Shown in pieces: positions 58,986-60,432 of a DNA stretch of 64,000 nt. Origin of the DNA: Halorubrum cibi. Its GTDB lineage: Archaea > Halobacteriota > Halobacteria > Halobacteriales > Haloferacaceae. The DNA is taken from contig NZ_FXTD01000001.1 in the NCBI RefSeq assembly GCF_900182635.1, positions 124,001 to 188,000 of the forward strand. The letters run 5' to 3'. The notes beneath the pieces were generated by a model. The model saw only the letters and a program-made list of their open reading frames with translations, did no database searches and was not told the origin of the DNA. Numbering within the stretch: the stretch's first letter is position 1; each line of letters begins with the position of its first letter. The position numbers were made by a program, and so were the translations under genes.

Positions 58986-59576
58986 TCAACCGCCGGTTTC
59001 AGCGTCGGTAGGGATCTCGAATTCGAGTCGGCCGTCGAGGACGTGTGTTCGGTCGGTCAGCCCCGATTCGACGAGTTCGACGGTGTTTTCGACGACACAG
59101 CGATGGGCTGACTCCGGCCATCGGGTGACCGGAAGATCGATGAATACGGTCTCGTCGGCGACTTCGCCGAACCGATGGACTTCGACGACCGCGGCCGTCC
59201 CCTCTCGGAACAGCGACACGGACGGATGTGGTTCGTGGTCACCCATGAACGGGCCTTGAAGCGAGACCCGTGGCGGGGTGCCGTCGCCGCCGAGTGCCAC
59301 GAACCGCTGTGTGAGCGACTGGAGTTCGGTCTCTTCAGGATGCGAGATCGACGTGTGGAAGTGTTTCGGCAGTGGGGCAAACCTCGGGTCAACGCCCACC
59401 GTGGCGAGATCGTCGCCGTCTCCGCGAAACTCGAGATACTTCCCGTCATCCCGGGGACCGTCGTCGGTCTGTACCGTCGGATCCGCGTGTTCGATCCGGG
59501 ATTCGACGGCACTACACCCCGCAGCGGTGGTGGAGGCGGCGGTCAGTGCGGACGCGAGGAATGCGCGACGGCGCAT
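58986..59576 (-). CDS. Tat-exported lipoprotein, unknown function
   Basis: A 196-residue protein starting MRRRAFLASALTAASTTAAGC, i.e. a Tat-type signal with a lipobox-like TAAGC (Cys near residue 21). The mature part has no motif I know; it includes FAPLPKHFHTSISHPEET and EVHRFGEVADETVFIDL. The frame is open for 53 codons upstream, but MRRRAF is the obvious signal start. It stands alone in a lower-GC segment between the antiporter and tRNA-Arg genes that may be a remnant of integrated DNA. Confidence 0.7.
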   Translation of the reverse strand: MRRRAFLASALTAASTTAAGCSAVESRIEHADPTVQTDDGPRDDGKYLEFRGDGDDLATVGVDPRFAPLPKHFHTSISHPEETELQSLTQRFVALGGDGTPPRVSLQGPFMGDHEPHPSVSLFREGTAAVVEVHRFGEVADETVFIDLPVTRWPESAHRCVVENTVELVESGLTDRTHVLDGRLEFEIPTDAETGG

Positions 59577-59750
59577 AGCCGGCGGTTTCGATCGTAGCAG
59601 TAATGGCTTTGTTGAAATCCGATCCTTCGGATGTAACGCGAATTGAAACGGTCGGTATACCTCGAGTGCGAACGTGTTGATCCGGCAACGTTCCGATTTC
59701 CTGATAGACCCCCAATAACAGTTATCCCGGATCACGGTGTACTATTGGGT

Positions 59751-60029
59751 ATGGGAGAACTCGAAACGGAGGAGGAGAAAACACGAGCGGAGATCGCTAC
59801 CTATCTCCGGGACTTGGCTGACCAACTTGACAGTGGCGGGAACGTGACTCTCGATCTCGGGGGAACGGGAGTACAGTTAGACCCGACAGAGCCTGTAACC
59901 TTCAAACTCGAGGGCGAATCAGACTGGTCTGAAGGGGATACAGAGGCCAAACAGAGTATCGAGTTTGAACTGGTATGGTGGCGGGAAGCCGCCACTGCTG
60001 AGGAGGGGGAGTTAGACATTCAAGAGTAA
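59751..60029 (+). CDS. Amphi-Trp domain protein
   Basis: A 92-residue protein with the layout of the haloarchaeal amphi-Trp domain. A charged helix (MGELETEEEKTRAEIATYLRD) is followed by DQLDSGGNVTLDLGG and a beta strand with VTFKLEGESDW; the terminal strand is KQSIEFELVWWREA with a Trp pair. It probably acts in the cytoplasm; function unknown. Codons are less GC-rich than in housekeeping neighbours. The ATG at 59751 fits the domain; the frame extends upstream another 36 codons without protein-like character. Confidence 0.7.
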   Translation: MGELETEEEKTRAEIATYLRDLADQLDSGGNVTLDLGGTGVQLDPTEPVTFKLEGESDWSEGDTEAKQSIEFELVWWREAATAEEGELDIQE

Positions 60030-60146
60030 CTTTACGCTCATTTTTCGAGTCATGCTGATAGACCGATACGGGAATTCAATGGTCCGTCCCTGATCTGTAC
60101 TGACCGATCTGGTCCCACGGAGAACGTACACGAGTTGTTCTATAGC

Positions 60147-60158
60147 GTCCTGACGGAG
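60147..60158. repeat. Copy 1 of the tRNA-Arg 3' end
   Basis: GTCCTGACGGAG, identical to the last 12 nt of tRNA-Arg as read on the plus strand (60361-60372). It shares AGCGTCCTGACGGAG with copy 2. It may be a relic attachment site or a target duplication. Confidence 0.7.
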
Positions 60159-60295
60159 TCCCACGCGAGCGGAGCGAGGGCGATCGAAGGGAGCCCTCGA
60201 AAGTGAGCGGCGAAGCCGCGAACGAGCGAGCGTGGGGCACGTTAGGACGCGAACGCGGCGGCTGTCGAACGAAGTGAGACAGCCGCAAAGTGAGC

Positions 60296-60307
60296 GTCCT
60301 GACGGAG
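60296..60307. repeat. Copy 2 of the tRNA-Arg 3' end
   Basis: GTCCTGACGGAG again, 149 bp from copy 1 and 65 bp from the true tRNA end. Direct orientation relative to both. Confidence 0.7.
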
Positions 60308-60360
60308 TTTTCGGACACACGCACGGCTCGCGATGCTCGCCGTTTGGTGTGTCCGAAAAC
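60307..60360. repeat. Perfect 14-bp stem hairpin abutting tRNA-Arg
   Basis: GTTTTCGGACACAC (60307-60320) pairs perfectly with GTGTGTCCGAAAAC (60347-60360). The 26-nt loop holds a further 5-bp stem. It starts where the tRNA ends (minus strand), so in the precursor RNA it would be a 3' trailer hairpin. Confidence 0.8.
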
Positions 60361-60432
60361 GTCCTGACGGAGATTTGAACTCCGGTCCCTGGCTCCGCAA
60401 GCCAAGAGGATAGTCCACTACCCTACCAGGAC
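60360..60432 (-). tRNA. tRNA-Arg, anticodon GCG
   Basis: A 73-nt cloverleaf on the minus strand. The acceptor stem GTCCTGG pairs with TCAGGAC (one G-U). The D arm has A14 and the GG pair. The anticodon stem TTGGC/GCCAG holds the loop TTGCGGA, i.e. anticodon GCG reading CGC/CGU. A 4-nt variable loop follows; the T arm is CGGAG-TTCAAAT-CTCCG. Discriminator G; CCA is not encoded. No intron. Confidence 0.93.

Follow-up and report, generated by a model that had tools for sequence, protein, structure and literature searches.

Introduction

Genomic elements that end at tRNA genes can persist after losing the means of their own integration. CIMEs have lost their integration genes, retain attL and attR, and stack with incoming ICEs and IMEs at tRNA 3' ends (PMC5704250). 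SNJ2-type integrases are confined to Halobacteria according to a review of tyrosine recombinases in archaea, which lists 13 bp for an integrated virus of SNJ2 type (PMC8371274); the 13-bp att of Humcor2 is identical to the 3' end of tRNA-Pro (PMC7911831). No description of ORF-free arrays of att arms behind haloarchaeal tRNAs was found in the open-access literature, subscription papers being outside this coverage. A probable array of this kind is described here from Halorubrum cibi, at tRNA-Arg(GCG) of the window, which is the whole stretch of 64,000 nt that was analysed.

The tRNA-Arg(GCG) locus

The sequence GTCCTGACGGAG occurred in direct orientation at 60147, 60296 and 60361 of the window. 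Repeat search and ARAGORN bore out the statement of an initial annotation, made from the letters alone, that these are three direct copies of the tRNA-Arg 3' end. The exact repeat is 13 nt long, reading CGTCCTGACGGAG on the forward strand and CTCCGTCAGGACG in the sense of the tRNA, where it forms the last 13 nt of tRNA-Arg(GCG) and comprises the 3' strands of T-stem and acceptor stem together with the discriminator base (Table 1). The window held no further exact copy, and a scan of the whole genome returned three exact copies of the 13-mer, all at this locus. Both intervals between the copies consist of hairpins only, as had been noted: the one nearest the tRNA is a 52-nt hairpin, and the next, of 136 nt, is palindromic too. 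The 14-bp perfect stem of the former (60307-60320 with 60347-60360) takes in the last base of the tRNA. The region folds much more stably than its shuffles (z -6.6). A search of the array region against Rfam matched the tRNA (RF00005) alone and returned no family for the units.

Table 1. Features of the array behind tRNA-Arg(GCG) and of its surroundings, in positions of the window.
Feature	Position	Strand	Basis
tRNA-Arg(GCG); its 3' 13 nt (60360-60372) are the presumed attB/attL core	60360..60432	-	ARAGORN; Rfam RF00005
Second 13-nt copy of the tRNA-Arg(GCG) 3' end (T-stem 3', acceptor 3', discriminator)	60295..60307	-	repeat search
Third 13-nt copy of the tRNA-Arg(GCG) 3' end, outermost	60146..60158	-	repeat search
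Unit 1: type A, truncated to 52 nt, with hairpin 1 but without inverted T-loop and hairpin 2	60308..60359	-	comparison with congener G003 (L033)
Perfect inverted repeat of unit 1, 14 bp	60307..60360	.	inverted-repeat search
CTCCG junction of the unit 1 deletion	60303..60307	-	window versus L033
Unit 2: type B, 136 nt, hairpins only	60159..60294	-	comparison with congeners
Inverted acceptor-strand sequence within unit 2, CGTTAGGACG on the forward strand	60240..60249	-	inverted-repeat search
Amphi-Trp domain protein, outside the array, without bounding repeats	59758..60029	+	ORF, domain and repeat search

The lower-GC genes at 59.0-60.0 kb had been put forward as possible leftovers of a mobile element. 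This was rejected: no copy of the repeat bounds them, even with up to three mismatches allowed, and one of them encodes an ordinary Amphi-Trp protein. Together with a putative lipoprotein gene on the reverse strand, the gene of this protein occupies 58986-60029, between the array and an antiporter gene. The antiporter end lies within approximately 100 nt after the array in several congeners (e.g. L033 and L052), so this segment looks lineage-specific.

Unit types and turnover among congeners

Units were of two types. A complete type A unit starts with hairpin 1 and continues with the T-loop region in inverted orientation (GGAGATTTGAGC), after which come hairpin 2 and TTCAAATCTCCGTCAGGACG, the direct copy of the tRNA 3' end. 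Type B is made up of hairpins and the 13-nt copy, and in many congeners adjoins tRNA-Arg(GCG) directly. Behind this tRNA the congeners carried varying mixes of the two (e.g. none, B, AB and BBB), with every unit ending in the 13-nt copy or a longer one. The initial annotation would have been contradicted had all relatives shown the same three copies and no element bounded by them; the relatives held 0, 1, 2 or 3 units in differing order, and an 11.1-kb element bounded by a repeat was present at the tRNA-Arg(GCG) of one haloarchaeon (G240, below). On a tree of a neighbouring gene from 22 congener genomes, of moderate support, at least five changes were counted for type A and at least nine for the whole array; arrays at tRNA-Arg(GCG) therefore turn over.

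Hairpin 1 of unit 1 in the window is identical in every letter to that of congener G003 (L033), in which the right half is present. Unit 1 passes from AAAACTCCG directly to TCAGGACG with a CTCCG microrepeat at the junction, and apparently lost its right half through deletion between such microrepeats.

Many hairpin loops, at 60320-60347 and in other units, read GCGAGCGNAGCGAGC. On only one of the two strands could these loops adopt a GNA triloop with tandem G.A pairs, and that strand is seemingly opposite in type A and type B.

Occurrence behind other tRNAs

Genomes were scanned for 13-nt copies of each tRNA's own 3' end, with at most one mismatch, within 600 nt downstream. Such copies followed 13 of the 42 tRNAs in the genome of the window, one of them due to a tandem tRNA-Asp pair, and 17 of 28 in G033, a haloarchaeon of another family; in a control genome of the same phylum from outside the order (G065) none of the 23 tRNAs had one. 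The same scan upstream of the 42 tRNAs found no copy apart from the tandem tRNA-Asp. The presence of like copies behind many tRNAs here, with almost none upstream and none in the control genome, excludes a chance origin. Looking for the modules at other tRNA ends, as had been proposed, was thus productive, and extended them to 30 tRNA species overall. Over all loci examined, arrays stood at 132 of 288 tRNAs and comprised 208 units; the proportion is no estimate of frequency, because the loci were partly retrieved via the motif. Array strings included A, B, AB, ABAB and AAAAA, and the median unit length was 138 nt for type A and 97 nt for type B. There was no complete ATG ORF of at least 30 amino acids in 202 distinct units.

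An inverted T-loop was found in 116 of the 134 type A units, as against one in the reversed control, at a median offset of 62. The inverted T-stem fitted its own tRNA better than other tRNAs (3.68 versus 2.43 of 5), the acceptor part hardly better. The layout signature was present in 33 of about 53 genomes sampled from the order and in one of about 242 others belonging to the phylum, both totals being our own count from the genome list, and the reversed control gave none in the order. A motif of one hairpin-2 family (AGTCGCAG/CGTCT) was retrieved in 57 stretches. Nearly all were haloarchaeal, and in nearly all the motif directly followed a tRNA, mainly Arg-GCG and otherwise Gly, Tyr, Phe, Ser, Glu, Pro, Thr or Ile. 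Hairpin-2 families are common to several tRNA types and genera and conserved in sequence; at one tRNA-Asp they vary between Halorubrum species. Mismatches were somewhat more numerous in outer than in inner copies (9 versus 3 in 55 arrays). The right ends of units folded not much above mononucleotide shuffles.

Folding and conservation led at first to a reading of the units as functional trailer RNA, in which a read-through trailer of hairpins with inverted and direct T-arm copies controls tRNA maturation or termination or yields a small RNA. The strong folding of the window region, the order-wide conservation of the layout of hairpin and inverted copy, the placement of units behind many tRNAs and the conserved AGTCGCAG/CGTCT motif all agree with a trailer. 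That reading was demoted by the turnover of hairpin families at a single tRNA and by the same layout at the ends of integrase elements (below). Units also serve only 13 of the 42 tRNAs of one genome, their presence, order and hairpin family change between congeners, and Rfam holds no matching family. The inverted copy is dictated by the tRNA sequence, so compensatory folding would not prove an RNA structure. A trailer function appears unlikely.

Local tandem duplication with replication slippage at the hairpins would copy a tRNA end with no recombinase at all. Near-identical neighbouring units in some arrays (L103 and L298) and the loss of sequence between microrepeats in unit 1 are what slippage could produce. 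It leaves unexplained why copies end at the last tRNA base in 30 tRNA species, why units of unrelated sequence have one layout, why they are distributed in haloarchaea only, and why they are homologous to the arms of integrase elements; as the source of the arrays it is highly improbable.

Phage records searched with type A and B units gave no match, and plasmids gave matches to common palindromes only. Among viral contigs, 60 matched the pattern of T-loop and anti-T-loop; the few inspected seemed unrelated, bar one contig with a tRNA-Gly array that the other pattern had retrieved. On the 73-kb IMG/VR viral contig L194 a type A unit accompanies tRNA-Gly(GCC), possibly in host DNA that flanks a provirus. 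At L188:1354-3978 two tRNA-Gly(GCC) genes lie approximately 2.5 kb apart, each with its own array of different units, which suggests that the tRNA was duplicated together with an array; a 2.1-kb interval of L188, considered as an element between copies, was rejected on finding this second tRNA-Gly and its array. On a contig labelled Nitriliruptoria bacterium (L147, a MAG) the type A motif accompanies a tRNA-Arg(GCG) of haloarchaeal type; the contig is probably a binning contaminant.

Integrase elements at haloarchaeal tRNAs

Between tRNA-Phe and its array, Halorubrum sp. GN11 carries a 7.2-kb element encoding a tyrosine integrase with PF00589 and a SAM-like N-terminal domain, relatives of which were found in 70 of 79 genomes of the family. 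Most of 30 integrase starts had the 3' end of some tRNA copied close by, often with a hairpin before the copy. The integrase query was 43% identical over 99% to the integrase of pleolipovirus SNJ2 and also matched HHPV4, HRPV9, Halfgib1 and Humcor2. A 13-bp attP is annotated in the records of Humcor2 and Halfgib1, and hairpin-like sequence was seen by eye right after the core in the attP of SNJ2, HRPV9 and Halfgib1. Thirteen elements of about 1.8-15 kb were traced to a tRNA end, with a core of 13 or at least 20 nt. Most had a hairpin before the right core, a clear one being absent in L379, L387 and L389. Of the full-length left arms, 13 in number, 6 had an inverted T-loop at +74/75 from the tRNA end, against 1.05 expected, and 7 were without it.

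The right arms of the tRNA-Phe elements L275 and L380 matched ORF-free units of tRNA-Phe (E 1e-24) and tRNA-Tyr (2e-9), and the left arm of L380 matched Gly units in another family (2e-5). A BLAST control with reversed arms gave two weak matches, so only the strong Phe and Tyr matches carry weight. One Phe unit in the genome of the window itself starts and finishes like an integrase element at tRNA-Phe, and judged by sequence the homology of unit and element arms is clear for this tRNA. No arm homology to integrase elements was found for type B, to which the 13-nt core is the sole link, and no autonomous partner element was found for the Arg-GCG units of the window. At L275, L379, L383 and L386-L389 an integrase element lies between the tRNA and older units, with L397 a degenerate case; this arrangement is the signature expected of accretion proximal to the tRNA. 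At the tRNA-Phe of Halorubrum laminariae (L276:403-3701) there comes first a left arm like that of L275, then two ORFs judged by eye to be TnpB-like, and lastly the right half of a type A unit on its own, with no hairpin 1.

A search of 69 genomes with the exact 13-mer brought up the interval of 11.1 kb at tRNA-Arg(GCG) in G240, a haloarchaeon of another family. It has a 44-nt repeat at both ends and a GC content of 0.52 against 0.62 in its flanks, and its genes include those for a tyrosine integrase and a DnaG/Toprim primase. An apparent remnant of hairpin 1 lies beyond its outer copy. The SNJ2-type query did not match this integrase, and several integrase families may therefore use the tRNA-Arg(GCG) site.

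The succession of inverted copy, hairpin and direct copy also invites comparison with integron attC and the attP of CTX phage. The units might be mobile cassettes recombined as folded single strands, in which the inverted and direct T-loop copies form a double-stranded core within one strand. Units of this size are too small to form double-strand circles easily, and tandem arrays of shuffled order, with hairpin families common to different tRNAs, would fit. The attC core GTTRRRY is not matched, however (GTTCRAAT in the units), type B lacks the T-loop pair, and the inverted copy is also present in the left arm of ordinary integrase elements, all of which makes such cassettes rather improbable.

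Origin of the arrays

The explanation that we favour, with a probability of roughly 0.72, is that the locus represents tandem accretion at tRNA-Arg(GCG) of integrase-less, cargo-less derivatives of tRNA-targeting integrative elements. Comparison between genomes supplies its basis in the repeats and their layout, the common core length and arm features, the arm homology at tRNA-Phe, the nesting of elements and the turnover between species. Each unit would consist of the bare left and right ends of an integrative element, closed by an att core that is copied from the tRNA 3' end. Tyrosine-integrase elements, pleolipovirus- or plasmid-like and many with SNJ2-type integrases, would recombine their attP with the tRNA 3' end. 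We infer that a recombinase made the arrays and that internal deletion made the units, so that nothing but the two arms stayed between attL and attR. The intact tRNA end would then receive a later element, which displaces the older remnant outward and leaves units in tandem, and in unit 1 of the window the right half would subsequently have been deleted at CTCCG. The core-adjacent hairpins and the inverted T-loop copy approximately 60-75 nt away would be putative sites of the integrase or accessory proteins in the attP arms.

The initial suggestion that duplicated tRNA ends mark integration gains support, as in structure the units resemble both ends of larger integrase elements. It had left a choice between tiny elements and larger ones that had departed. 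The units are indeed tiny and their arms are like those of integrase elements, so each alternative is partly upheld; simple departure is disfavoured, as it would leave one copy and not several.

Conservation of hairpin-2 families across tRNA types and genera is not readily produced by passive, independent deletions, and suggests mobilisation in trans or a selected function rather than plain remnants. A bolder proposal, advanced tentatively and rated as possible but doubtful, is that the gene-less units of approximately 100-140 nt, each made of two att arms and nothing else, constitute a MITE-like family of tyrosine-recombinase systems, present in arrays behind tRNA genes throughout Halobacteria. 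SNJ2-type integrases would mobilise them in trans, with folded single strands as a possible substrate, and the units could pass from one tRNA gene to another, the inverted T-loop copy being adjusted to the new tRNA each time.

If accretion is the correct explanation, past integrations at haloarchaeal tRNAs can be read from their 3' flanks. Tyrosine-integrase elements would then be able to contract until only att arms are left, and might spread in that form, as MITEs do in relation to transposons. Core-flanking hairpins and an inverted T-loop copy are predicted features of the little-studied SNJ2-type attP sites. Repeats at haloarchaeal tRNA ends do not by themselves imply a gene-bearing island.

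Comparison with known systems

Integron attC arrays resemble those described here in being composed of short units with imperfect palindromes that close on a common core site. The units, by contrast, hold no gene cassettes, form many separate arrays, one per tRNA, and read GTTCRAAT/ATTYGAAC where attC reads GTTRRRY/RYYYAAC. With the haloarchaeal MITEs, PATEs and SMRs (PMC3119063) they have in common that they are short, non-coding, palindromic, abundant and dependent on enzymes from elsewhere. Those elements, however, rely on transposases or on an agent of unknown nature, and for them no targeting of tRNAs is described (PMC3119063); their target duplications are short or absent, whereas the units always duplicate the tRNA 3' end. 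This duplication differs with every tRNA, unlike the combination of terminal inverted repeats and a transposon target duplication by which MITEs are defined. SNJ2-type elements and pleolipovirus proviruses have a 13-14 bp core at the tRNA 3' end (PMC8371274, PMC7911831), 13 nt in the window, and several full-length relatives have core-flanking hairpins and the inverted T-loop at +74/75; the units differ in encoding nothing, neither an IntSNJ2-family integrase nor replication or capsid genes.

CIMEs are the nearest named kind. Reviewed CIMEs derive from conjugative or mobilizable bacterial elements (PMC5704250), whereas the units are about 100-140 nt long, ORF-free and reduced to att arms, and in two genomes follow a third or more of the sampled tRNAs. 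Decay in the manner of CIMEs from an element at the same site is indicated at tRNA-Phe by the right-arm match (E 1e-24) and the left-end resemblance in the window's own genome, and is unsupported for the Arg-GCG units of the window. The likeness lies in the absence of integrase and transfer genes (no ORF of at least 30 amino acids in 202 units), in boundaries formed by tRNA 3'-end copies of the kind that serve integrase elements as att cores, and in the tandem stacks that result when later elements enter the att site holding the end of the target gene.
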